Assembly: GCF_900890425.1 (NCBI RefSeq)
Contig: NZ_CAAHFG010000001.1
Span: forward strand, 4,278,001 to 4,342,000
Reading direction: 5' to 3'
Origin: Pontiella desulfatans
Lineage (GTDB): Bacteria; Verrucomicrobiota; Kiritimatiellia; Kiritimatiellales; Pontiellaceae
DNA length: 64,000 nt
Shown: positions 50,871-64,000 of the stretch, one piece after another
How positions within the stretch are numbered: the first letter of the stretch is position 1
Layout: every line of letters starts with the position of its first letter
The notes under the pieces: model-generated
Seen by the model: only the letters and a program-made list of their open reading frames with translations
What the model was told of the DNA's origin: nothing
Database searches by the model: none
Translations under genes and position numbers: made by a program

Positions 50871-51407
50871 CTACTCTACCTCGACAACAACATTATCGAA
50901 GCGCCACCATTCCTTGGCCGTGGAGGTCTTTATGGTTTCGACCACCAGCATGAGATAGGTTTCGGCGGTGCCGGACGGAACCACGAAATCAGAAAGGGTA
51001 ATCGTCTGGAACGTGGCGGAGGGCTTCGTTATGACCTTCTTGGACTCGCGCAAGGTCTTCCCCTCGGCATCGATGCACATCAGCACGACGGTGGCCTTTG
51101 AATTGCCTTTGATTTTCCCGGCAACATCGACGCTGCCCTTGACCACCCATCCGGCATCGGCCTTCGCAATGGTCCGCACACAGGCTTTCATTTCCGGCGC
51201 ATCGCCCTTGGCAATGGAACACATGGCTGATTTTTCACCATTGCTGGCCGCCTTGGCATAGATTGACCACCCTTTTCCCTGGATGGTCCATCCCGTAAAG
51301 TCGCCGGACTCGAAACTACTCTTCATTTCGGCAGACCTCACCCGCGGAGCGGTTAACAAAACCAGCCCCACAACGATCCCCAACTCCACCAACCGATTCC
51401 GACGCAC
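50871..51407 (-). CDS. Secreted beta-sandwich (carbohydrate-binding-like) protein
   Basis: 178 aa if translation starts at GTG (51407), which has AAGGGAG 8 nt upstream and gives a signal peptide (LVELGIVVGLVLLTAPRVRS A); an in-frame ATG 66 nt upstream gives a cysteine-rich leader and is less likely. The mature part is a single beta-sandwich domain beginning KSSFESGDFTGWTIQGKGW and ending WWRFDNVVVEVE, typical of CBM-like or jelly-roll modules. No catalytic domain. Next to a regulator and the heme-protein operon, but role unknown. Confidence 0.65.
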   Translation of the reverse strand: MRRNRLVELGIVVGLVLLTAPRVRSAEMKSSFESGDFTGWTIQGKGWSIYAKAASNGEKSAMCSIAKGDAPEMKACVRTIAKADAGWVVKGSVDVAGKIKGNSKATVVLMCIDAEGKTLRESKKVITKPSATFQTITLSDFVVPSGTAETYLMLVVETIKTSTAKEWWRFDNVVVEVE

Positions 51408-51538
51408 GTTCCCATCTCCCTTTTTCACATGTGATACACGTCTACATTTTATGCACGAAAAACCGGAAAACATCCAGCCTGCGTTAAGTCTATTTTCAGG
51501 AAGGCGTCCAAACGCCGTTTAATCCGCCCCTGCAAGGG

Positions 51539-52411
51539 TCATTGCCCGCGAAAGCCGGAAGGCGCCAGTCCCGTCTTGCGCTTGAACAGGGCGGAAAAAT
51601 GGTTCTGGGTCTTGAAACCGAGGGTTTCGGATATTTGCCGGATGGACAAATCGGACTCGGCCAGCAGCACCTTGGCCCGTTCAAGCCGCAGCTGCTGGTG
51701 ATAGGCCGCGGGCGCCATGCCGCGCTGCTCCCGGAACACCTTGCGGAACCAGGAATAACCCACATAGAGGTTGGCGGCCAGCTCTTCCACATCGAGCGGA
51801 CGGTGCAGGTTGTTTTCCATGATTTCCCGCGCCTGCCCTACCACGCTATGGATATAATCCCGATTCGAGGAGCGGCTCGAAAACGCACAACGCGAGCTCA
51901 TCTCCAGCGCGCTTTTCCTGAGGGCTTCCGCCACCTGGTCAAAAATCCGCACCGGGAATCCCGCCGAAGGCCCCGTGGCCCACAATCCGGCAACAACCCG
52001 ATGCTCCTCATCGAAAACCGGCACCCCCACGCAGTGGCACCCTTCGATCTGCTCCGACACATCGATGCTGTAGCCCTTCTCGCGGACACTCTCGAGTTCC
52101 GCTTCGAAATCCGCGGGGCTTGTTATGGTGCTCTGGGTGTATCGCCGGAAATCCATGTGCGCATAATAGGCACGGCGCTCCGCTTCGGGCAGGTAGGCCA
52201 GCATCGCCTTGCTCGGGGCCCCGGTATGCAGCGGAAACTCGTAATGGACTGCCAGATGGAAAGAAAAACCGGAACTTCCGTCCACTGCCGCCAACACAAT
52301 CCCGTCCCCTTTACCGGGTTGGAGCGTGCCAAGCCCAATGGTGTAGCCGAGGCTCTGTTCGAGCCTGCGCATGACATCCCTGGCCTTGGCGGTTAGTTTT
52401 TCGAGCGGCAT
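51539..52411 (-). CDS. Hybrid regulator: IclR-type effector domain + AraC HTH
   Basis: 290 aa from ATG giving MPLEKLTAKARDVM. Residues ~10-175 match the IclR effector domain (LHTGAPSKAMLAYLPEAER; GYSIDVSEQIEGCHCVGVPV; FDEEHRVVAGL). Residues ~190-290 are an AraC-type double HTH (LHRPLDVEELAANLYVGYSWF; LSIRQISETLGFKTQNHFSALFKRKTG). The usual IclR N-terminal winged helix is missing and DNA binding has moved to the C-terminus. An in-frame upstream reading of 180 codons is antisense noise. Divergent from the HzsA-like operon with 94 bp between, so it probably controls it. Confidence 0.85.
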   Translation of the reverse strand: MPLEKLTAKARDVMRRLEQSLGYTIGLGTLQPGKGDGIVLAAVDGSSGFSFHLAVHYEFPLHTGAPSKAMLAYLPEAERRAYYAHMDFRRYTQSTITSPADFEAELESVREKGYSIDVSEQIEGCHCVGVPVFDEEHRVVAGLWATGPSAGFPVRIFDQVAEALRKSALEMSSRCAFSSRSSNRDYIHSVVGQAREIMENNLHRPLDVEELAANLYVGYSWFRKVFREQRGMAPAAYHQQLRLERAKVLLAESDLSIRQISETLGFKTQNHFSALFKRKTGLAPSGFRGQ

Positions 52412-52450
52412 GGAATCAATATGTACATAAAAAAATATCAATGCAAATAT

Positions 52451-52478
52451 ATACTCTTCGTCGCCGCACTGAGAGTAT
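52451..52478. promoter_or_regulatory. Candidate operator in the divergent intergenic region
   Basis: ATACTCT (52451-52457) and AGAGTAT (52472-52478) are a perfect 7-bp inverted repeat, 21 bp centre to centre (two helical turns), between the hybrid regulator and the first HzsA-like gene. GAAGGA precedes that gene's ATG. Confidence 0.4.
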
Positions 52479-52505
52479 GGAACCGGTAATGAAGGAAAAA
52501 ACACA

Positions 52506-54974
52506 ATGAACCCGACCCTGATCATGGCGACCCTCTTGCTGGCGGCTTCCCTTGCCCCTGCAGCGACCGATCCGGTGCATGCCGCCCATGCGCTGGATTT
52601 CGATGTGATTAGCCAAAACATTGAACAATACCATCCTTCGCAGTGGGCCGAATACGGCAAGGTGGCGGCCCAGGCCCTGCGCACGGACGCGCTGATTCTT
52701 GAAGCCGACCGCACTCCGGTGGACGTCGTCCTGCGGCGTACGCAGGCCCTGCTCGACCACCTCGGCGCGAAGCAACACCAACGGGACCTCAACCAACTCA
52801 AACGTAAAAACAAAGCGGGCCTTTCGGTTGAAGGGCAACGCGCATTGTTCATGGAGGTCGCGGAGCTGCGCCGCAAGGCGGCCTTTTCCAATCCCCTGCT
52901 CGACTTCGACTCGCTCCTCTTCCTTAAGCACAATCCCAAGGCACGCGGCGACAACCACATGGTCGATCAATATCTCGGCTTCAACCAGTCGTCCGGAGGG
53001 GGTATCTTCCGGCTCGACCATCCCTTCACAAACCCGCAGGCCACTAGCCTACTGGACGATGAACTCGATCAAGAAAACGGCTCGTTCATTTCGCTCGACC
53101 TCGACTACGACGCGAACGAAATCCTTTTCGCCTACACGCCGCTCGACTGGAAGGGCCATACCGAAACAAACAACTGGAACGGCCAACCGTGGAACCCGCA
53201 GGAGGCCTCCCGCAACAACCACAACAAACACTATTGCTTCCTCGAAGAGTCGGCCTTCCATATCTTCAAGGCCAATGCCGACGGCGGGAACCTCCGGCAG
53301 CTCACAACCGGACAATGGGACGACTTCGACCCCGTCTTCCTGCCCAGCGGTCGCATCGTTTTCATCTCTGCCCGCGCCGGGGGAACCCAGCGGTGCGGCT
53401 ACCGCTTCATCCCCACCTACACCCTGTTCGGCATGATGCCCGACGGTTCCGACATCCAGCAGTTCAGCTGGCACGACACCAACGAATGGCACCCCAGTGT
53501 CAACCACGACGGCATGCTCGTCTACACCCGCTGGGACTATGTCGACCGCGATTCCGACATTGCCCACCACCTTTGGTTCTGCTACCCGGACGGCCGCGAC
53601 CCGCGCTCGATGCACGGCAACTATCCCGACAACCGCTCGCACCGCCCGTGGATGGAAATGAGCATCCGCGCCGTACCCGGTTCCCACCAATACACCGCCG
53701 TCGCCGCGCCCCACCATGGCGAGGCCTACGGCTCGCTCGTCCTCATCGACCAAGCGCTTCCGGACGACCGCGCGATGTCGCAGGTCAAGCGAATCACGCC
53801 GCTCTCCGCCTTTCCTGAATCCGAAATCACTCCCGGCCTCTCGTTCCGCGACGGCAAGGGCAACAAGCAGCGCGACTGGAACTATGGAACCCCGTGGCCA
53901 CTCTCCGACGACTTCCACCTCTGCGTCTACTCCCATAAAAAACTCGGCAACTATGGCATCTATCTCGTCGACAGCTTCGGCAACCGCGAGCTCATCTATC
54001 GCGATCCAAGCATCTCCTGCCTCGACCCAATCCCCTTCCGCCCGCGCACGCGCCCGCCCGTCATCCCCGTCCAAACCCAGCAGATGCAGGCCGACCGCGA
54101 GCCGGGGCTCGATCCCTCCATCGGCACGGTCTCGGTCATGAACGTCTACGAAGGCGAATTCCCGATTCCCGAAGGCATAACGATCAAGGAATTGCGCATC
54201 GTCAACGTCTTCCCAAAATCGACGCACGCCATCGACAACCCGCGCATCGGCCATGCCGACCAGTCGATCGCGCGCGGCGTGCTCGGCACGGTGCCCGTCG
54301 AGGAAGACGGCAGCGTCTTCTTCGAATGCCCCACCGGGGCGGGCCTCTATTTCCAGCTGCTCGACGAACACGGCATGATGGTGCAGAACATGCGCACCGA
54401 CACCTACCTGCATCCCGGCGAAAAGCTCAACTGCATCGGTTGCCACGAAGACAAATTGAACGCGCCGAAGATCAACCGGGTTCCGCTGGCCCTCAAGCGC
54501 CCGCCTTCCAAAATCAAGCCCGAAGCGCCCGGCTCCTGGCCGCTCACCTTCCCGCGCCTCGTCCAGCCCGTGCTCGACAAGCACCCGGATTTCTTCGCCG
54601 CGCTCTATCCCGAAAAAAACCTCAGCGGAACCGAGTTCGGCAAGTGGGGCTGGTCGCAAGCCATGCACACGCTCGAGAAAGACGCATGGGGCAAGCATGG
54701 CGGCAACGGGGCCCTCTCGAAGAAAAACAAACGCTCCTACTCCCTCCCCATGCAGGAAGGTGCCCGCGTCTCCAAACTCTGGAAAAAACTCGAAGCCGCC
54801 GGGGCGCGCGAAAAACTACCGCCCGAAGACCTGCGCCGCATCACCCTCTGGCTCGACTGCAACTCCAACTTCTACGGCGCATACAAGGATATCGGCCAGC
54901 AGGCGCAGGGCGCAGCCCTCCTCCCCCAAGACGGAATCCCCGCCTGGTCGCCCCCCAACCAATTCGTTAACTAA
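52506..54974 (+). CDS. HzsA-like (hydrazine synthase alpha-type) cytochrome, one heme
   Basis: 822 aa. Signal peptide MNPTLIMATLLLAASLAPAA; N-terminal helical/beta region; central propeller with HZS-alpha/PD40-like repeats (NADGGNLRQLTTGQWDDFDP; LPSGRIVFISARAGG; HDGMLVYTRWDYVDRD); C-terminal domain with one c-type heme motif CIGCH (C643-H647) and a final LDCNSNFYGAY. At the point where the next paralogue has CVGCH, this protein has H693-PDFF, so a second heme is lost. Periplasmic. These proteins are widespread in PVC bacteria; the reaction is unknown. First gene of the operon, with a paralogue 96 bp downstream. Confidence 0.85.
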   Translation: MNPTLIMATLLLAASLAPAATDPVHAAHALDFDVISQNIEQYHPSQWAEYGKVAAQALRTDALILEADRTPVDVVLRRTQALLDHLGAKQHQRDLNQLKRKNKAGLSVEGQRALFMEVAELRRKAAFSNPLLDFDSLLFLKHNPKARGDNHMVDQYLGFNQSSGGGIFRLDHPFTNPQATSLLDDELDQENGSFISLDLDYDANEILFAYTPLDWKGHTETNNWNGQPWNPQEASRNNHNKHYCFLEESAFHIFKANADGGNLRQLTTGQWDDFDPVFLPSGRIVFISARAGGTQRCGYRFIPTYTLFGMMPDGSDIQQFSWHDTNEWHPSVNHDGMLVYTRWDYVDRDSDIAHHLWFCYPDGRDPRSMHGNYPDNRSHRPWMEMSIRAVPGSHQYTAVAAPHHGEAYGSLVLIDQALPDDRAMSQVKRITPLSAFPESEITPGLSFRDGKGNKQRDWNYGTPWPLSDDFHLCVYSHKKLGNYGIYLVDSFGNRELIYRDPSISCLDPIPFRPRTRPPVIPVQTQQMQADREPGLDPSIGTVSVMNVYEGEFPIPEGITIKELRIVNVFPKSTHAIDNPRIGHADQSIARGVLGTVPVEEDGSVFFECPTGAGLYFQLLDEHGMMVQNMRTDTYLHPGEKLNCIGCHEDKLNAPKINRVPLALKRPPSKIKPEAPGSWPLTFPRLVQPVLDKHPDFFAALYPEKNLSGTEFGKWGWSQAMHTLEKDAWGKHGGNGALSKKNKRSYSLPMQEGARVSKLWKKLEAAGAREKLPPEDLRRITLWLDCNSNFYGAYKDIGQQAQGAALLPQDGIPAWSPPNQFVN

Positions 54975-54986
54975 CAGGAATTAAAT

Positions 54987-55058
54987 ATGACCGCTAAGAC
55001 GCTAAGAAACAAAGCATCCAAATACCCGCCCTTTCGTATCTTTGCGTCTTTGCGGTCA
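54987..55058. repeat. Hairpin repeat between the two HzsA-like genes
   Basis: TGACCGCTAAGACGCTAAGA (54987-55006) and its inverted relative TCTTTGCGTCTTTGCGGTCA (55039-55058) could form a ~24-bp stem. Related to the TTTGCGTTCCTTGCG strings at 8931, 9361 and 14990. Confidence 0.75.
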
Positions 55059-55070
55059 AAATATTTCCAT

Positions 55071-57443
55071 ATGATGAGAAATTCTTCTGCCACCAAATTA
55101 TTCTGCTTAATTCCACTATTGGCCATGCGAACGCACGCAAGCGAAGTCGAGGAACAGTACAAGGTACTGGAGTTCGACCTGACGCGCGTCGCCCATTTCG
55201 AGAGCATCGCATCCGAAACCCTCCACCCGCAGGCGCTGGTCACCCTGGCCGACCGCGACCCACTGGACATCCTCCTGCGCCGCACCCGTGCGCTGCTCAA
55301 CGACATTGAACAGATGCCGGGCGCGCCGGACATGAAGGCGTTCGCCAAGCGGCTCAAAGAGTTCGAACGTTCCGAGGACGGCCGGAAGGAGCTCTTTGCC
55401 AACGTTCATGAGCTCCGCCGGGAGATCGCCTTTGCCAACCCCCTGCTCGACTTCGACAAGATCCTCTTCATCAAACGCCACCGCTCCAACTTCAGCCACA
55501 TGTGCGACCAGTTCTACGGTGCGCACGCGCGCCCCGGTGGCGGCGTTTGTGTTTTAGGCAACCCCTTCAGCGACCAGCCTTCCGTCCGGAATATTGTTCC
55601 CGAACTAAACGATGGCAGTTTCCTCTCCCCGGAGCTCGCGTTCGACGGCAAGCAGATCATGTTCGCCTACGTTGAAGGCACCGGCGACAAGAAACATATC
55701 GTCCACCTCGACCACGAGCGCGGACATTGGGAAGAAGGCCGCTGCTACCACCTCTATTCCGCCGACCTCGACACTGAAGGCAACGCCTCAAATTTGAAGC
55801 AACTCACCGAAGGCACCTTCAACGACTTTGATCCGTGCTACCTGCCGAATGGGCGCGTCGCCTTCATCTCCGAGCGGCGCGGCGGCTACCTGCGCTGCGG
55901 ACGCGCCTGCCCTTCGTACACCGTGCACGACATGAAGCCCGACGGTTCCGATATCCGCATCCTCTCCCCCCACGAAAACAACGAGTGGCAGCCGAGCGTC
56001 CTGCACGACGGCATGCTCGCCTACACCCGCTGGGACTATGTCGACCGCCACGGTTGCGTGGCCCACCATCCGTGGATCATGACGCCCGACGGTCGCGACT
56101 CGCGCGCCGTGCACGGCAACTTTTCCGTCGCCAAGAAACGCGCCGACATGGAGATGGATCTGCGCGCCGTGCCGAGCTCGAACAAAATGATCGGCACCGC
56201 CGCACCGCACCACGGCCAGGCCTACGGCTCGATCATTCTCATCGACCCGCGCGTGCCGGACGACGATGGAATGGCGCCCGTCAAGCGCGTCACACCCGAA
56301 GTCGGTTTCCCCGAAACCCAGAAAGGCAAACAGGTCTACGGCACGCCGTGGCCGCTGAGCGAAGATTACTACCTCGTTATCTACGACGCCAAAATGCAGC
56401 AACGCAACGGACGGCAGGGCGACAAATCCAACCCCCGCGGCGAATACGGCATCTACCTGCTCGATAAGTTCGGCAACAAGATCCTGATCTACCGCGATCC
56501 GGAAATCGCCTGCCTCAGCCCCATCCCGCTGCGCCCGCGCCCGATGCCCCCCGCCCTGCCCGAAAAGTGCGACCGCCTCGCCGACACGCCGCCGACGCAC
56601 GGCTCCATGGCCGTCATGGATGTCTACGACTCGTTCCTGCCCTGGCCGAACGACACCAAGATCAAAGCGTTGCGCATCGTCCAGATCCACCCCAGCTCAG
56701 TGCCCTCCGGGCCGCGGCCGCACGAGACCGGGCGGCGCATCGCCGAAGCGTCCGACTCGGTCAACCTCACCCGCAGCATCCTCGGCACCGTGCCCGTCGA
56801 GGAGGACGGCAGCGCGCACTTCAAGGTCCCCGCACTCAAGGAACTCCTTTTCCAGGCGCTGGACGAAAACGGCCTTGCCGTGCAGTCGATGCGCTCCTCC
56901 ACCTGGGTGCAGCCCGGCGAACAGCTCGTTTGCATGGGCTGCCACGAACCGAAAAACCGCGCGCCGCTCCCATCGAACCACGTACCGCTGGCCATGAAGC
57001 GCAAGCCATCCGAACCGATGCCCGACGTCGATGGCACCAACCCCTTCAGCTACCCGCGCCTCGTTCAGCCCGTGCTCGATAAGCATTGCGTCGGCTGCCA
57101 CGACAAGGACCACATGCTTCCGCTCGACCGCACCATCGTCGACTCCAAGCTCGACCGCCAAAGAACCACGCAGGTCTACCGCTCCTACGACAGCCTCATT
57201 CACAAATACGCGTTCTGGGAGTTCGGCGACCACTACCGCACCATCCCCGGCCAGTTCGGCGCCCGCGACTCCAAACTCTACAAGATGCTGAAGAATGGAC
57301 ACAGCAACGTCAAGCTGACCGACGAAGAGCTGCACCGCATCACCGTCTGGCTCGACTCGATGTCGAACTTCTACGGCGTCTACGAAAAGGAAGGCGGCCT
57401 CGCCCAGCTCCGCGGCGAGATCGTCCAACCCACGCTGGAATAG
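55071..57443 (+). CDS. HzsA-like (hydrazine synthase alpha-type) diheme cytochrome
   Basis: 790 aa from ATG giving MMRNSSATKLFCLIPLLAMRTHAS; an ORF start 84 nt upstream reads through a hairpin repeat. Same domain order as its upstream paralogue: propeller repeats (LPNGRVAFISERRGGYLRCGR; HDGMLAYTRWDYVDRHG) and a C-terminal cytochrome domain, here with two heme c motifs CMGCH (C621-H625) and CVGCH (C673-H677), ending LDSMSNFYGVYE. HzsA of anammox bacteria also has two c-hemes in this region. Periplasmic, probably forming a complex with neighbouring heme proteins. Substrate unknown. Confidence 0.87.
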   Translation: MMRNSSATKLFCLIPLLAMRTHASEVEEQYKVLEFDLTRVAHFESIASETLHPQALVTLADRDPLDILLRRTRALLNDIEQMPGAPDMKAFAKRLKEFERSEDGRKELFANVHELRREIAFANPLLDFDKILFIKRHRSNFSHMCDQFYGAHARPGGGVCVLGNPFSDQPSVRNIVPELNDGSFLSPELAFDGKQIMFAYVEGTGDKKHIVHLDHERGHWEEGRCYHLYSADLDTEGNASNLKQLTEGTFNDFDPCYLPNGRVAFISERRGGYLRCGRACPSYTVHDMKPDGSDIRILSPHENNEWQPSVLHDGMLAYTRWDYVDRHGCVAHHPWIMTPDGRDSRAVHGNFSVAKKRADMEMDLRAVPSSNKMIGTAAPHHGQAYGSIILIDPRVPDDDGMAPVKRVTPEVGFPETQKGKQVYGTPWPLSEDYYLVIYDAKMQQRNGRQGDKSNPRGEYGIYLLDKFGNKILIYRDPEIACLSPIPLRPRPMPPALPEKCDRLADTPPTHGSMAVMDVYDSFLPWPNDTKIKALRIVQIHPSSVPSGPRPHETGRRIAEASDSVNLTRSILGTVPVEEDGSAHFKVPALKELLFQALDENGLAVQSMRSSTWVQPGEQLVCMGCHEPKNRAPLPSNHVPLAMKRKPSEPMPDVDGTNPFSYPRLVQPVLDKHCVGCHDKDHMLPLDRTIVDSKLDRQRTTQVYRSYDSLIHKYAFWEFGDHYRTIPGQFGARDSKLYKMLKNGHSNVKLTDEELHRITVWLDSMSNFYGVYEKEGGLAQLRGEIVQPTLE

Positions 57444-57445
57444 TC

Positions 57446-58405
57446 ATGTTCAAACCACGTAATTTGAAAAGACAGCGCAAAGCGTTCTGGAGCGCGGAGG
57501 CAACCAACGGGCGACACCGCTTTCCGCGTACAAAGAGCGGCGTGGCGCTCCGCTTCCCGCCGCACTCCAGAACGATTGCATTGTGCCTTTTCGTGGTAGC
57601 AAACGCTGAAGCAAAGGAAATCAAGCACCGCTTTTTGGCGAAGGATGAATCGCGGGCGCAGTTGCACTATGTCGACCAGCTCGATGCCTCCAAGGATTGG
57701 ACGATCAAGCTGGAAAAGGGTTGCCGCGATATCCGGCTGCTGGACAACCACCGCGTATTGGTTTCGCATGCCGACGGCTATGCGGAGTTCGATCTCGCCA
57801 CGCAACAACAGGTGCATGAAGTGCGCGATGCACGGTTCAAGAAGACGGAAACCGTCAGCCGCCTGCCCAACGGCAACACAATTCTCGGCGCAAACCAGAA
57901 GGGCATCACCTTTTTCGAGATCGCACCGGATGGCGCGGTGGTTCGGCAGGTCAACTTTCCGCAGTTCAACACCATGCGGCTGATGCGCCTTTCGCCGGAA
58001 GGCCGTTTCCTGTTCGGCGCCAACACCGACCACGTCATCGAAGCGGATTGGGACGGAGCCATCCACGCCGACATCCAGGTTCCCGGCGCCAAACATATTT
58101 ACTGGATTCGGAAAATGGATGCGCACTACCGCGTCTCGACGGGCTATGGCAAGTCGATCGTCGATGTCAGCCCGCAAGGCGAGGTGCTGCGCACGCTCGG
58201 CGGAACCGACGACTATTTTTTCTTTTCGCGCCCGTTCGAGTTGGCCAACGGAAACACCGTCTGCTGCAACTGGACGGGGCACAAGCCCAACGACAGCGAG
58301 AAGGCGCCGCAGCTCGTCGAGTTCGACCCGCAAGGCAACGTCGTCTGGAACTGGCACGATCCCCAACGCGCCGGCACCATCCACGGCGTCATCGTTTTAG
58401 ACTAA
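57446..58405 (+). CDS. Secreted beta-propeller protein
   Basis: 319 aa from ATG 2 bp after the HzsA-like stop. Residues ~55-319 form WD40/PQQ-like blades (LPNGNTILGANQKGITFFEI; FELANGNTVCCNWTGHKP; QLVEFDPQGNVVWNWHD). The export signal (TIALCLFVVANAEA) is unusually far from the start, at residues ~37-50, because an inverted repeat (57482-57574) lies inside the first codons. No heme motif. Probably an accessory or structural partner of the heme proteins. Confidence 0.75.
   Translation: MFKPRNLKRQRKAFWSAEATNGRHRFPRTKSGVALRFPPHSRTIALCLFVVANAEAKEIKHRFLAKDESRAQLHYVDQLDASKDWTIKLEKGCRDIRLLDNHRVLVSHADGYAEFDLATQQQVHEVRDARFKKTETVSRLPNGNTILGANQKGITFFEIAPDGAVVRQVNFPQFNTMRLMRLSPEGRFLFGANTDHVIEADWDGAIHADIQVPGAKHIYWIRKMDAHYRVSTGYGKSIVDVSPQGEVLRTLGGTDDYFFFSRPFELANGNTVCCNWTGHKPNDSEKAPQLVEFDPQGNVVWNWHDPQRAGTIHGVIVLD
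57482..57574. repeat. Palindromic repeat inside the 5' end of the propeller gene
   Basis: GCGTTCTGGAGCGCGG (57482-57497) and CCGCACTCCAGAACG (57560-57574) are inverted copies with one mismatch. The ~93-bp unit adds about 31 codons without breaking the frame. Confidence 0.75.
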
Positions 58406-58423
58406 CCAAACCATAGAGAAGTA

Positions 58424-58506
58424 TTGGCAAAATAATTGAATGCAAAATGAGGGTCATGCCCCATGCGTTATCGAAGCCAACATTTTGCATTGAATGATTT
58501 TGCTTA
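58424..58506. repeat. Dispersed hairpin repeat, family A (copy 2)
   Basis: TTGGCAAAATAATTGAATGC and its inverted counterpart GCATTGAATGATTTTGCTT fold into a stem of ~24 bp. The right half is the same repeat as at 44190-44218. Confidence 0.72.
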
Positions 58507-58529
58507 GACCGAGCACGAAAGGAACAACC

Positions 58530-59672
58530 ATGAGCTTTGATTATCACATTCCAACCAGGATCCTGTTTGGCGCAGGGAAACTGAACCAGCTGGCGGAGGA
58601 GCCGCTGCCGGGGACGAAGGCGCTGATCGTCATGTCGAACGGCGGCTCGATGAGACGGCACGGCTACCTGGAACGGCTCGAAGGCCTGCTGAAGCAGCAG
58701 AATATTGAATCGATCGTCTTCGACAAGATCCAGCCCAACCCCATCAAGGAACATGTGATGGAGGGGGCGGCGCTCGTGAAAGAACACCATTGCGATTTTG
58801 TCGTCGCGCTCGGCGGCGGCTCGCCCATCGATGCCGCAAAGGCCATTGCTGTGATGGCGGTCAACCCGGGCGACTTTTGGGACTATATCGGGAGCGGCTC
58901 CGGCAAAGGGCAGCCCGTGAAAAACGGCGCGTTGCCGATCGTGGCGATCACCACCACGGCAGGCACCGGCACCGAGGCCGACCCGTGGACGGTCATCACC
59001 AACGGCACCGAAAAGATCGGCTTCGGCTTGCCGCCGCACACGTTCCCGACGATCTCGGTGGTCGATCCCGAGCTCATGGTTTCGATTCCGCCGCATCTGA
59101 CGGCCTACCAGGGGTTCGATGCCTTTTTCCATGCGGTCGAGGGCTATATGGCCAACGTCGCCACACCGATGAGCGACATCTACGCGCTCGAAAGCATCCG
59201 GCTCGTGGCCGGATATTTACCGCGTGCGGTGGCCGAAGGCACCGACATCGAGGCGCGCGAAAAGGTGGCGCTGGCCAACACCCTTTCCGGCATGGTTGAA
59301 TCGACCTCCTGCGTGGTGTCGCAACATGCGCTTGCCCACGCCATGGGCGCGCTCTACCCCGAGCTGGCGCACGGGGCGGGGTTGCTGATGCTTTCCGAGG
59401 CCTACTTCAGCCATTTTGCCCCGCACTGCACCGTCCGCTATGCCAAGATGGCGGCGGCCATGGGCGGCACCGACTTCCTCGCCGAGCTGCTGGCCCTGCA
59501 GGACCAATGCGGCGTGCGCGGCCTCAGGATGTCGGAGTACGGCATCACCGAAGACGGTCTCGAGGCGATTGCCGCCAATGCGATCGACACCATGGGCTTC
59601 CTGTGCGATTTCGATCCTGTCCAGACCACGCAGGCCGATGCCGTCGATATTCTACGAGCCGCTTTTAAGTAG
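58530..59672 (+). CDS. Iron-containing alcohol dehydrogenase
   Basis: 380 aa from ATG giving MSFDYHIPTRILFGAGKLNQ. NAD motif ALGGGSPIDAAKAI, TTAGTGTEAD, DPELM and metal-ligand helix (D in YQGFDAFFHAVE, H in SQHALAHAMGALYPELAHGAG). Group III (BDH/1,3-propanediol-type) oxidoreductase of aldehydes or alcohols; substrate unknown. Cytoplasmic, embedded among the exported heme proteins on the same strand. It may reduce a product of the pathway or belong to a sugar-degradation step. Confidence 0.88.
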   Translation: MSFDYHIPTRILFGAGKLNQLAEEPLPGTKALIVMSNGGSMRRHGYLERLEGLLKQQNIESIVFDKIQPNPIKEHVMEGAALVKEHHCDFVVALGGGSPIDAAKAIAVMAVNPGDFWDYIGSGSGKGQPVKNGALPIVAITTTAGTGTEADPWTVITNGTEKIGFGLPPHTFPTISVVDPELMVSIPPHLTAYQGFDAFFHAVEGYMANVATPMSDIYALESIRLVAGYLPRAVAEGTDIEAREKVALANTLSGMVESTSCVVSQHALAHAMGALYPELAHGAGLLMLSEAYFSHFAPHCTVRYAKMAAAMGGTDFLAELLALQDQCGVRGLRMSEYGITEDGLEAIAANAIDTMGFLCDFDPVQTTQADAVDILRAAFK

Positions 59673-59838
59673 CCTGCCGAAAAGAGCCGCTCCGCCCCCT
59701 TTCCAGCAGCGGGAAACCGAAAGGAGGTCGCTCTTGGCTCAGCCGCCCCCGGTGTGCTATGGTTCGTCGCTTTTTAGGTCATAAACCTTGTAACTTGATC
59801 CATCCCATAGACCTCCGGGGCATCATCGAAGAGTAGAC

Positions 59839-61626
59839 ATGAAATTATTTTCAACCATTGCCATATCATTCGCGCTGCTAGGGGCGGCCGGGGCCCAGAC
59901 CTATCTCTCCCCGTGCGACATCGATCAATCGCCGGATAAAAAGACGATTTACATTACGGCCCACACGGGGCGCCAACTACTCTGCTTCGACGTTGCCTCG
60001 AAGAAGGTCGCGAAATGCATCGACCTGCCGGCGCAACCATCCGGCACCGTCCACTCCACCGACGGCAAAACGCTGTTCATTGCCGGCGGAGGCCCGGACG
60101 GCCGCATTTGGAAGGTGGATAACGGCACCATTACCGGCGAGTTTGAAACCGGACACACCCCCATCTCGCCGGTGCCCTCCCCCGACGGGAAAATGCTCTA
60201 TGTCTGCAACCGCTTCGACACCGATGTCTCCTTCATCGATCTCGCCTCCGGCGAAACCGTTGCGCGGGTTCCCGTGCTGCGCGAACCGGTGGCCGCCGAT
60301 GTCACCCACGACGGCAAGTTCCTGTTCGTGGCCAACCATATCCCGGACGGGCGGGCAGACGTGGATTATGTGGCCTCCAAGATTTCCGTCATCAATACGG
60401 CAACGAAGGAGGTCGAGACCATCCCGCTGGTCAACGGCGCGGAAGGCGTCCGCGACCTCAAGGTTTCGCCCGACGGCACGAAGATTTTCGCCACGCACCT
60501 GATGGCGCGTTTCCTCGTGCCGACCACCCAGCTGGAACGCGGCTGGGTTTCCACCGATGCGCTCAGCGTCATTGATGTCGCCAGCCGGTCACTGGAATAC
60601 ACCGTGCTGCTCGACGATGTCGATCAAGGCTTCCCGAACCCATGGGCCATCGGTTTTTCCAAGGATGGCAACACACTGGTGGTCTCCTCCGCCGGCAACC
60701 ACGAGATCAGCCTGATCAACCTCCCGGCCATGCGGGAAAAAATCGAGGCCGAAGCCAAGGCCGCCGAAGGGGAGGCGCACCTCAATGCGCACAACAACCT
60801 TTCGTTCCTGTCCGGCATCCGCAAACGCATCAAGCTGGCAGGCAACGGACCGCGCGCCCTCGTGGTGGACGGCGAATTCATCTATATCGGCAACTATTAT
60901 TCCGACACGCTGGAAGTGGTCCGGGTTTCCAAGGACTGGAGCACCCGTAGCGGCGTCTTCCAGCTTGGCCCCCAGCAAAAGCTTACGCCCGAACGCCTAG
61001 GCGAAATCTTTTTCAACGATTCCGCGCTCTGCTTCCAAAACTGGCTGAGCTGCGCCACCTGCCACCCCGACGCACGCACCGATGCCATGAACTGGGATTT
61101 GCTCAACGACGGCATGGGCAACCCCAAAAACGTCAAGACGATGCTGCTGGCCCACCAAACCCCGCGCGCCATGTGGCTGGGCGTCCGCGCCGATGCCGAG
61201 ACCGGCGTCCGCGCCGGCATCAAGCATATCCAGTTTGCCGTCCGCCCCGAAAAGGATGCCGTGGCCATCGATGCCTACCTCAAGAGCCTCGAGCCCGTTC
61301 CCAGCCCCTACCTGGTGGATGGCAAGTTGAGCGATGCCGCCAAACGCGGCGAGCGTATTTTCGGAGAACAAGGATGCATCGGTTGCCACCCCGCCCCCTA
61401 CTTCACCGATCTGAACATGTATGACATGGGCACCACCAAGGGGCAGGACGAAGGATTGCCCGTGGATGTCCCGCAGCTCATCGAAAGCTGGCGCACCGCG
61501 CCCTACATGCACGATGGTCGCGCCGCAACCATGCGCGATGTATTCTCGGAATTCCAGCACGGCAACGTTTCCGGCCTTTCCGAAAAGCAGATCAACGACC
61601 TCTCCGAATACGTGCTGTCGCTTTAA
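59839..61626 (+). CDS. Beta-propeller/diheme peroxidase-like fusion (HzsB-HzsC architecture)
   Basis: 595 aa. Signal peptide MKLFSTIAISFALLGAAGAQ. Residues ~21-375 form a YncE-like seven-blade propeller (SPDKKTIYITAHTGRQLLCF; SPDGKMLYVCNRFDTDVSFI). Residues ~385-595 form a MauG/CcP-like diheme domain with CATCH (C405-H409) and CIGCH (C513-H517) and the APYMHDGRAATMRDVF segment (distal-heme methionine). Hydrazine synthase beta is a propeller and gamma a diheme CcP-like subunit, fused in some anammox species; this protein has that layout. Other propeller-cytochrome fusions exist, so the functional link is not proven. Confidence 0.85.
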   Translation: MKLFSTIAISFALLGAAGAQTYLSPCDIDQSPDKKTIYITAHTGRQLLCFDVASKKVAKCIDLPAQPSGTVHSTDGKTLFIAGGGPDGRIWKVDNGTITGEFETGHTPISPVPSPDGKMLYVCNRFDTDVSFIDLASGETVARVPVLREPVAADVTHDGKFLFVANHIPDGRADVDYVASKISVINTATKEVETIPLVNGAEGVRDLKVSPDGTKIFATHLMARFLVPTTQLERGWVSTDALSVIDVASRSLEYTVLLDDVDQGFPNPWAIGFSKDGNTLVVSSAGNHEISLINLPAMREKIEAEAKAAEGEAHLNAHNNLSFLSGIRKRIKLAGNGPRALVVDGEFIYIGNYYSDTLEVVRVSKDWSTRSGVFQLGPQQKLTPERLGEIFFNDSALCFQNWLSCATCHPDARTDAMNWDLLNDGMGNPKNVKTMLLAHQTPRAMWLGVRADAETGVRAGIKHIQFAVRPEKDAVAIDAYLKSLEPVPSPYLVDGKLSDAAKRGERIFGEQGCIGCHPAPYFTDLNMYDMGTTKGQDEGLPVDVPQLIESWRTAPYMHDGRAATMRDVFSEFQHGNVSGLSEKQINDLSEYVLSL

Positions 61627-61752: not shown

Positions 61753-62946
61753 TCACGATTCGCTCAGGCGTTTGGCTTCCTTCTCTTCGTGGAAGAGTTC
61801 GTGCGCTTCCTGGAGGAGGGCCGGAATGCGGTCGGCGAACCGACTGCCTGCCAGGCATGACCAATCGCGCGAATCGATTTCCGTCGCCTTTTGGCCGGCG
61901 AACCACTCCCCGGCATTGCCGAGCAGGTTGTAGCGCATCTTGGCGAATTCGGTCAGGCCCAGCCCCTTGGCGAAGGTCCAAAGGCGAAGGATTTCACGTA
62001 CGTTGATGTTGCCCGGCGTGTCCGTGTGGGGCGGGATGCCCTCGAACCAATGGGCGACCCAGTCCGCGCCGAGGTCGGCCTGGAGCGATTCATGGATCCG
62101 GCGTTCGATCTGCCCGACAACCGGATCGTTCGCATGCTTGCACACCGCTTCCACATGCTCATCGAAGTCGGAAGGTTTCGACGCTCCGATGCTGAGGGTG
62201 TGCACCTCGGGGCGCGACAGGCAAAACAGATCGTTCCATTGCATGGGGGTCAGGGGGGCGCACAGCGCCTTCATTTTTTCGGCTGGGTGGTAGAGCATGC
62301 CGCCTTTGTCGTTGGGGCTGATGATGAATACCCCCATGTCCTGCTTGCTGGCGGCCCGGACCATCGGCCAGTGGAGCTGGTCGTAGATGAAATACCAGTG
62401 CAGGTTCACATAGTCGAACTCGCCCGTTTCACAGACGGGCGAGACCACCTCCGGCGATGCGTGGGTGGAAAAACCCATATGGCGCACGCGGCCCTCCTTC
62501 TGCAATTGGCGGATGGCTTCGACGCATCCGCCCTTCTTGAGGCAGGTTTCCAAATCCTGCTGCGTGTTGATGCCATGGATGGAGAGGAAATCCACATGGT
62601 CGAGCTGGAGATAGTTCATCGAGGTCTCGAAGACCTCAAGCAGTTCCTTGCCGGACTCCTTGACCCCGATCTTGGTCTGCACCATCAGCTTGTCGCGCTC
62701 AATCTTCGGCAAGACCCAGCCGAGCTGCATTTCCGACGGGCCGTAGCCGCGCGCGGTTTCGATGTGGTTGATGCCCAGCTCCAGCGCCCGGTGGATGCAG
62801 GCCTCGAGGTTTTCCTGCCCCTTGGGATCGATCTTGGACGGATCGAGATCGTCCCAGCCCTGCTGGTAGCGCATGCCTCCGCACGTCAGCACCGGCATCG
62901 GCACCTCGGTTCTTCCAAATCGTCTAGTCGGTACTCTCATGATCAT
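61753..62946 (-). CDS. Aldo/keto reductase family protein
   Basis: 397 aa from ATG at 62946 (AGG nine nt upstream); a 40-codon longer reading lies inside uvrC. TIM-barrel NADPH reductase: GINHIETARGYGPSEMQLG (catalytic D replaced by E in HIETARGYG, Tyr present), K in LMVQTKIGV and H in FLSIHGIN. A C-terminal extension of ~90 residues (from ~300) resembles the iron-sulfur-type AKR extensions but lacks the cysteine cluster. 10 bp after the uvrC stop, so co-transcribed with it. Substrate unknown. Confidence 0.83.
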   Translation of the reverse strand: MIMRVPTRRFGRTEVPMPVLTCGGMRYQQGWDDLDPSKIDPKGQENLEACIHRALELGINHIETARGYGPSEMQLGWVLPKIERDKLMVQTKIGVKESGKELLEVFETSMNYLQLDHVDFLSIHGINTQQDLETCLKKGGCVEAIRQLQKEGRVRHMGFSTHASPEVVSPVCETGEFDYVNLHWYFIYDQLHWPMVRAASKQDMGVFIISPNDKGGMLYHPAEKMKALCAPLTPMQWNDLFCLSRPEVHTLSIGASKPSDFDEHVEAVCKHANDPVVGQIERRIHESLQADLGADWVAHWFEGIPPHTDTPGNINVREILRLWTFAKGLGLTEFAKMRYNLLGNAGEWFAGQKATEIDSRDWSCLAGSRFADRIPALLQEAHELFHEEKEAKRLSES

Positions 62947-62956
62947 TTCGTGGTGC

Positions 62957-64000
62957 CTACTTTTTATCCAGTTCGTTGCGGATGAGTTCCGCGGTCTTCT
63001 TGCCGATGCCCGGGGCTTCGGCGATTTGATCGATGGTGGCACGACCGAGCCGCGTAATCGAGCCAAAGTGTTTCAATAGCAGTTCTTTCTTGGATGCCCC
63101 GATGCCGGGAATTTCGTCGAGCCGCGATTCCATGATGCGCTGGCGGCGCAGGTCGCGGTGGTAGGTGATGGCGAAGCGGTGGGCCTCGTCGCGCAGGCGG
63201 GTCACCACGGTCAAGCCCGCCGAATGGCGCGGCAGCACCAGGTTGCCCGAATTATCCGTGTAGTCCCAAACCACCTCTTCATAACGTTTGGCCAAGCCCA
63301 CGATCGGCAGGTCGTCGAGCCCCAGTTCGACCAGCTCGGCCTTGGCGGCGCGCAGCTGAGTGATGCCGCCATCGACCATGACCAAGCCGGGCATGGGCTT
63401 GCCCTCCCGTTGCAGGCGCGAATAACGCCGCCGCACCACCTCGGCCATCGAGCGCGGATCGTCGGCCCCCTCGACGGTCTTGATCCGGAACCGGCGGTAG
63501 CGGTTTGGATAGGGTACGCCATCGACGGAGCACACCATGCTGGCCACGGAGCTGGTGCCTGAAATGTTGGAGATATCGAAGCATTCGATCACGCGCGGCT
63601 CCTCCATCAGCTTCAGTTGCGTCTGCAGTTCTTTCAGGCCCTGGCGTGCCTCGTCCTGCTTCATCTTCGGCGTCTTGCGCACCTTGGCCTTTTCCTTCAC
63701 GGCGTTGTGGAGGTGCATGAGCATGTCGCGCAGGGCGGCGGCTTCCTCGAACCGCAACCCGCCGGCCATACGCTCCATCTCGGCGCGCAACTCCTTGAGC
63801 ATGCCCATGCGCTCGCCGCGCAGGAAGGCGCAGGCCTCCTCCACCCGGCCGCGGTATTCCTCCGCCGACACCTTGCCGATGCACGGGGCCGAACAGTTGG
63901 CGATGATATCGTTGCTGCAATGCTTGTAGGTGTCGGCATCCGGCTCGCGCGGGCGGCAACGCCGCAATCCGAAGTGCCGCTCCAGGAACTCAACCGCCAC
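62957..64000 (-). CDS. uvrC: Excinuclease ABC subunit C, partial (5' end outside window)
   Basis: At least 347 codons of the C-terminal part. Cysteine motif KHCSNDIIANCSAPCIG, UVR domain (RAEMERMAGGLRFEEAAALRD), RNase H-like UvrC endonuclease domain (VIECFDISNISGTSSVASMV; VMVDGGITQLRAA; LRDEAHRFAITYHR) and a C-terminal helix-hairpin-helix (LDEIPGIGASKKELLLKHFG; APGIGKKTAELIRNEL). The GIY-YIG nuclease domain lies beyond the right edge. Incises damaged DNA with UvrAB. Confidence 0.95.
   Translation of the reverse strand: MAVEFLERHFGLRRCRPREPDADTYKHCSNDIIANCSAPCIGKVSAEEYRGRVEEACAFLRGERMGMLKELRAEMERMAGGLRFEEAAALRDMLMHLHNAVKEKAKVRKTPKMKQDEARQGLKELQTQLKLMEEPRVIECFDISNISGTSSVASMVCSVDGVPYPNRYRRFRIKTVEGADDPRSMAEVVRRRYSRLQREGKPMPGLVMVDGGITQLRAAKAELVELGLDDLPIVGLAKRYEEVVWDYTDNSGNLVLPRHSAGLTVVTRLRDEAHRFAITYHRDLRRQRIMESRLDEIPGIGASKKELLLKHFGSITRLGRATIDQIAEAPGIGKKTAELIRNELDKK

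Follow-up and report, generated by a model that had tools for sequence, protein, structure and literature searches.

In a 64,000-nucleotide window of the Pontiella desulfatans genome (8.66 Mb in six contigs; contig NZ_CAAHFG010000001.1, positions 4,278,001 to 4,342,000), one strand carries an operon with distant homologs of the three modules of hydrazine synthase (HZS), the key anammox enzyme, built of HzsA, HzsB and HzsC; the host is a marine bacterium that ferments sugars and has no anammox metabolism. Two genes for HzsA-like proteins, here termed alphaA and alphaB, are followed by genes for a small propeller protein, an iron-containing alcohol dehydrogenase (Fe-ADH) and a secreted fusion of an HzsB-like propeller with an HzsC-like diheme domain. 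AlphaA (52506..54974, + strand; coordinates are those of the window throughout) has 822 amino acids (aa) and a Sec signal-like N-terminus, matches PF18582 with 77 bits and HzsA (PDB 5C2V_A) by phmmer, and by motif count contains a single CXXCH, the CIGCH at 54432..54446 (+) that is equivalent to the site of heme alphaI; its second heme motif, which 104 of 107 aligned non-anammox alphas keep, is lost. AlphaB (54987..57443, +; 818 aa) scores above the PF18582 cut-off (98.5 bits), and the position of its signal peptide suggests a true start near 55071. It contains both a CMGCH (56931..56945, +), the alphaI equivalent, which lacks a Tyr591 equivalent, and a CVGCH (57087..57101, +), the alphaII equivalent. 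The fusion (59839..61626, +) comprises a seven-bladed HzsB-like propeller at approximately residues 20-366 and the diheme domain at approximately residues 385-595, with two CXXCH in total, a CATCH (61051..61065, +) equivalent to gammaI and a CIGCH (61375..61389, +) equivalent to gammaII.

The small secreted beta-propeller protein (about 57446-58405, +) had no match in a curated Pfam search; genes like it adjoin other alphas, with relatives among the alpha neighbours in loci L021 and L134. Signal-like N-termini can be read on the alphas, the small propeller and the fusion. The Fe-ADH (58494..59672, +; PF00465, 166 bits) has no signal peptide and is therefore cytosolic and outside any periplasmic complex, and its candidacy as a part of such a complex was rejected. 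Upstream, on the opposite strand, lies the divergent regulator (51539..52411, -; 290 aa), which combines an IclR_C ligand-binding domain (PF01614, 107 bits) with an AraC-type helix-turn-helix (HTH) domain (PF12833, 72 bits); no inverted-repeat operator was found between it and alphaA in 52380-52520. The operon is flanked by a protein like those with domains of unknown function (DUF; 50871-51473, -) and an aldo/keto reductase (AKR; 61753-63066, -). The two alpha genes, the small propeller, the Fe-ADH, the fusion and the divergent regulator listed in the sequence-only reading are all indeed present, the first five on one strand; alphaA, counted there as an HzsA-like cytochrome, has only one heme motif. 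In the whole genome, PF03150 (CCP_MauG) matched only two proteins, both of them such propeller-diheme fusions, and one c-heme assembly gene is present.

Relationship of the proteins to hydrazine synthase

By profile and predicted fold, the window fusion is nearer to HzsB plus HzsC than to YncE or MauG. Its best NCBIfam family was hydrazine_BC (126 bits, E 1.4e-36), followed by hydrazine_beta (102), hydrazine_gamma (67), MauG (38), MbnH (34) and YncE (32 bits), all of these scores falling far short of the curated thresholds set for the hydrazine models (560-1250). A profile of 13 fusion sequences matched HzsB (5C2V_B) with 172 bits in one 347-position stretch and HzsC (5C2V_C) with 126 bits, compared to 53 for the best cytochrome c peroxidase (CCP), while the repetitive surface-layer propeller 1l0q scored slightly higher than HzsB (184 bits). 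When the predicted model (pLDDT 89.7, pTM 0.91) was used in a fold search, 5C2V_B ranked first (Z 44.7, 337 residues, 2.3 A) and 1l0q next (Z 35.0); as propellers filled the PDB search with the diheme half, the assignment of this half rests on the sequence profiles. The HzsB-HzsC layout proposed in the sequence-only reading was thus borne out, and an identity as ordinary YncE plus MauG was rejected on the NCBIfam, profile and fold scores. The conserved fusion loop PTTQLERGW aligns with PVCEAENGQ of HzsB, with one Glu in common, and may correspond to the tunnel-side loop of HzsB. An extra cysteine of the fusion, Cys398 (at 61030), precedes the first CXXCH by seven residues and is conserved in 143 of 159 relatives.

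The alphas were likewise linked to HzsA, with 142 bits between the alpha profile and 5C2V_A. The predicted model of alphaB (pLDDT 82) matched 5C2V_A with a Z of 33.5 over 565 residues (model 152-805), ahead of TolB (Z 26.4), and this match extends over the propeller, middle and C-terminal domains, so that alphaB, as modelled, covers all HzsA domains. Among non-anammox alphas, 85-95% keep Cys304, Arg348-Trp349-x-Tyr351, Glu645 and a Glu that follows the CXXCH, the R-W-x-Y motif being kept by 85-89%, and anammox HzsA has none of them with the exception of one Scalindua Cys. Judged from conservation, these alpha residues and the cysteine before the first CXXCH of the fusion are likely functional sites of the non-anammox branch. 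HZS_alpha proteins are greatly expanded in some genomes of the Planctomycetes-Verrucomicrobia-Chlamydiae (PVC) group (35 in G243, 24 in G244 and 22 in G241), where some adjoin sulfatases and fusions are few per genome.

To compare residues known from hydrazine synthase, we used five or six anammox sequences as the reference for 107 non-anammox alphas and 159 non-anammox fusions. The proximal Tyr591 of heme alphaI, a Tyr in 5/5 anammox HzsA sequences, is Asn or Leu in the window alphas, and Tyr is not among the common residues of this column in 107 other non-anammox alphas. Cys303, which together with His587 binds Zn, is Phe or Tyr (it is absent from Scalindua too), and His772, the distal ligand of the bis-His heme alphaII, is Ser and Ala. 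In the fusion, Cys165 of HzsC, which forms the third thioether of heme gammaI, falls in a gap and is absent from 159/159 non-anammox fusions, and the gammaI pocket residues His144 and Asp168 are replaced by Trp and His. The hydroxylamine oxidoreductase/hydrazine dehydrogenase (HAO/HDH) family (PF13447) had no member in the window genome or in P. sulfatireligans (G242), whereas the two anammox genomes that served as positive controls gave 15 and 12 matches, counting genes or gene parts. In the fusion tree, anammox sequences group with ten-heme planctomycete fusions, apart from the window group, with a support that is not decisive (SH-aLRT 93). Hägglund and colleagues (2025; PMC12758564) describe a similar loss of HZS residues for other non-anammox homologs. 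Because equivalents of Tyr591, His144, Cys165 and Asp168 as well as HAO-family proteins are absent, the locus is not a hydrazine synthase, and a real one was rejected on these grounds; the sequence-only reading was right to make no anammox claim and to leave the substrate unassigned.

Association of alpha and fusion genes

We surveyed 240 genomes of the class, counting fusions at E <= 1e-20. A fusion was present in 73 genomes and HZS_alpha in 79, with both in 69, the fusion alone in 4, an alpha alone in 10 and neither in 157 (Fisher test with no correction for relatedness: odds ratio 271, p 6e-44). In the source genome, 3/3 fusions adjoin an HZS_alpha gene, and this result and the class-wide odds ratio show that the adjacency is not due to chance. 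Neither outcome named as refuting the earlier proposal was seen: the fusion is not closer to YncE or MauG, and the two gene types do not rarely co-occur but do so strongly. The two further pairs of the source genome (L018:4672-12398 and L019:6415-13553) encode much longer chains, with alphas of 1641 and 1162 aa and fusions of 934 and 1299 aa, respectively, and the genes of the first pair overlap by 4 bases. Of 125 different fusions for which the flanking sequence sufficed (including anammox), 80 had an alpha either as part of their own chain or at a distance of up to 3 kb. Within the 70 non-anammox pairs lying no more than 3 kb apart, 54 were separated by 200 bp or less, and 20 clusters had two or three same-strand alphas. 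The identities of alphas and fusions were correlated (rho 0.52, compared to a maximum of 0.28 in 500 permutations; species phylogeny uncorrected). Moreover, single chains that unite alpha and beta-gamma parts occur in L262 (a planctomycete; 1730 aa) and in L135 (3111 aa; a GldK/EgtB-like region separates the two parts), and they belong to different tree branches.

Several other arrangements recur around the family. In 32 of 159 loci (e.g., L089, L094, L101, L106, L119 and L187), a 379-aa Rid/chorismatase-like protein comes next after the fusion; several of these loci also contain ResB and CcsA, often with no alpha, and constitute a second genomic context of the fusion family. A larger second fusion-like protein (~1000-1200 aa) directly follows the fusion in the planctomycete loci L255-L257, L259, L265 and L266. 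A protein of ~220 aa with a twin-arginine translocation (TAT) signal and no Pfam or NCBIfam match recurs beside an alpha or fusion (L158:4803-5468 and 10 other loci).

Relatives differ in the gene content around the fusion. In G120, G146 and G061, the closest fusion orthologs in the genus are enclosed by the DUF and AKR genes that flank the window operon; the window has, in addition, the module 51539-59672 between the DUF gene and the fusion. The gene order is IclR-alpha-ADH-alpha-fusion in G126 and G114 and ADH-alpha-fusion in G225. In three Pontiella relatives, an Fe-ADH 75-79% identical to that of the window stands beside an alpha. Across all these contexts the ADH and the fusion (68-74% identical) are orthologous, whereas the alphas differ (about 30%). 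The fusion and the ADH are thus combined with interchangeable alphas, and the fusion can also occur by itself. In another phylum, Planctomycetes bacterium CA13 (L140, 9944-11746) has a fusion 71% identical to that of the window, which falls inside the Pontiella group in the tree and adjoins IclR, DhaK, DhaL, LsrF and two alphas; this locus is a recent inter-phylum transfer of the cassette.

Regulators and catabolic neighbours

In five other loci, the regulators beside alphas are full IclR proteins (HTH_IclR plus IclR_C). As loci were picked around alphas or fusions, only a whole-genome test of IclR is free of selection bias. In the whole source genome, 5/5 IclR_C proteins are encoded no more than 11 kb from an alpha (range 2.3-10.8 kb), a zone that makes up just 2.6% of the genome; one alpha has two of the five at its flanks. 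In three further genomes, 6/6 IclR_C proteins above 100 bits were within 9 kb of an alpha, compared to 1/5 of the weaker matches, and two alpha-rich genomes had no IclR_C protein. What the alpha neighbours have in common is sugar and polyol metabolism: DhaK, DhaL and an LsrF-type aldolase stand beside alphas in nine to ten loci, including L023 of the source genome (the LsrF-type aldolase of L140 scores 439 bits, above cut-off), a xylulokinase-like FGGY kinase and a short-chain dehydrogenase/reductase (SDR) adjoin the alpha of L021, and a class II fructose-bisphosphate aldolase that of L023.

Discussion

We read the locus as a divergent, non-anammox member of the hydrazine synthase structural family in a regulated catabolic operon, forming a periplasmic heme complex for a carbohydrate or polyol, and put the chance that this is correct at about even. 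The secreted alphas and the fusion would meet in the periplasm as an HZS-like alpha/beta-gamma complex, in which heme alphaI and the propeller site (Cys304, Arg348-Trp349-x-Tyr351) would have a carbohydrate or polyol derivative as their substrate and the diheme half would exchange electrons with a cytochrome or the menaquinone pool; cultured Pontiella contain menaquinone and c-type cytochromes (PMC7356697). A keto or aldehyde product could then enter the cell for processing by the Fe-ADH (DhaKL and LsrF-type enzymes would take this role in related operons), with the IclR_C domain sensing a pathway metabolite and switching the operon. AlphaA, lacking heme II, may assist alphaB in a structural or regulatory capacity.

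Several observations weigh against this reading. Among the 125 flanked fusions, 45 have no alpha within 3 kb; the fusion orthologs of G120 (72%), G146 (69%) and G061 (68%) stand without alpha, ADH or regulator, so that the fusion may function with no alpha next to it and an obligate alpha-fusion complex is no more than a possibility; and in many PVC genomes alphas greatly outnumber fusions. A role in carbon catabolism is read entirely from neighbouring genes, and we know of no conserved catalytic residue for carbohydrate oxidation at a c-type heme. In the sequence-only proposal of a multiheme complex, the joint presence of all HZS modules stands, while the Fe-ADH proved to be no module and some close fusion orthologs have no neighbouring alpha. 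The alpha-free fusions, including the three from the genus and those beside Rid/chorismatase-like, ResB and CcsA genes, could instead point to a diheme peroxidase or electron carrier that works by itself, its closeness to alphas reflecting a loose clustering of cytochrome genes; we consider this unlikely in view of the three alpha-adjoining fusions of the source genome, the two separate single-chain alpha-beta-gamma proteins, the correlated divergence and the strong phyletic co-occurrence.

The fusion might also be a MauG/MbnH-like maturase, whose propeller-docked diheme domain would oxidise a Trp or Tyr of the alpha (e.g., Trp349, Tyr351) and so turn the alpha into the real enzyme. Consistent with this, the diheme domain falls within the CCP/MauG superfamily, the paralog in L019 matches MbnH with 58 bits, R-W-x-Y is common in alphas and missing from anammox HzsA, and one fusion could serve many alphas; however, the propeller is HzsB-like and no generic docking propeller, and the column aligned with His144 (the Trp position of MauG/CCP according to PMC12758564) holds Trp in just 32 of 159 fusions, which makes such a role quite unlikely in our estimate. 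That an ordinary YncE propeller was joined to an ordinary MauG domain, with no specific relation to HzsBC, is very improbable: Pfam sees only a generic propeller plus CCP_MauG, but hydrazine_BC is the top NCBIfam model, HzsB aligns in one 347-position stretch and leads the fold search, and HzsC outscores the best peroxidase. Hardly credible, finally, is a function as hydrazine synthase or in some other nitrogen-oxide reaction, even with three modules of HZS fold or profile all in place, given the missing catalytic-site equivalents, the HAO/HDH-free genome with its anammox controls, and the physiology of cultured Pontiella strains, which live by sugar fermentation, show no nitrate reduction and are subject to nitrite inhibition (PMC7356697).

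How hydrazine synthase arose is a long-standing question, and among family members outside anammox we found none with an assigned function. The neighbours of the alphas suggest that the enzyme family first served carbohydrate breakdown rather than nitrogen chemistry. As a wider and doubtful extension of the periplasmic-complex reading, anammox hydrazine synthase could be a recruited branch of an older, large PVC family of periplasmic alpha/beta-gamma heme assemblies, with carbohydrate or polyol catabolism under IclR-type control as its native job and a two-heme complex that predates nitrogen chemistry. A genus with cultured type strains, together with a ligand-sensing regulator and catabolic neighbours, offers a direct route to an inducer, to a substrate and to the first functional assignment in the family. 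Papers from 2023 (PMC10732223, Phycisphaerae UBA1845) and 2025 (PMC12758564, clades I-IV) described co-localised homologs of alpha and beta-gamma in non-anammox bacteria, and this kind of arrangement is therefore already known. New here are the proximity of IclR_C to HZS_alpha, the recurrent DhaK-DhaL-LsrF, sugar-kinase and Fe-ADH neighbours and the single-chain alpha-beta-gamma proteins: a literature search returned no publication on a link between IclR and HZS homologs, and the available portions of the literature contained no mention of Fe-ADH, IclR_C-regulator or DhaK-DhaL-LsrF links to them, or of the single-chain proteins.

Compared with known systems, MauG, MbnH and bacterial cytochrome c peroxidases resemble the C-terminal half of the fusion in the two CXXCH and the general diheme fold, but they score below HzsC, and the fusion has an HzsB-like propeller attached. 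Hydrazine synthase itself (HzsA, HzsB and HzsC, PDB 5C2V) shares all three modules with the window, the order of domains and the folds being the same, and has clustered alpha and beta-gamma genes, and the Scalindua enzyme has a fused HzsBC as well; the window proteins, however, are only ~20-23% identical to it, lack the equivalents of Tyr591, Cys303, His144, Cys165 and Asp168, include two different alphas (one without heme alphaII) encoded upstream of beta-gamma, and are accompanied by catabolic neighbours and a dedicated regulator instead of HAO/HDH partners. Verrucomicrobiota and Pontiella are unnamed in the main text of PMC12758564. Regarding the hallmarks of its clades I-III, the window fusion has no N-terminal c554 heme region (clade I), FG-GAP had no match among the scanned window neighbours, and ten-heme fusions form a branch separate from that of the window in the fusion tree; judged by these hallmarks, the window would fit clade IV. 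With the homologs described there and with UBA1845 (PMC10732223), the window shares the gene pair, the loss of HZS residues and the fused beta-gamma protein.

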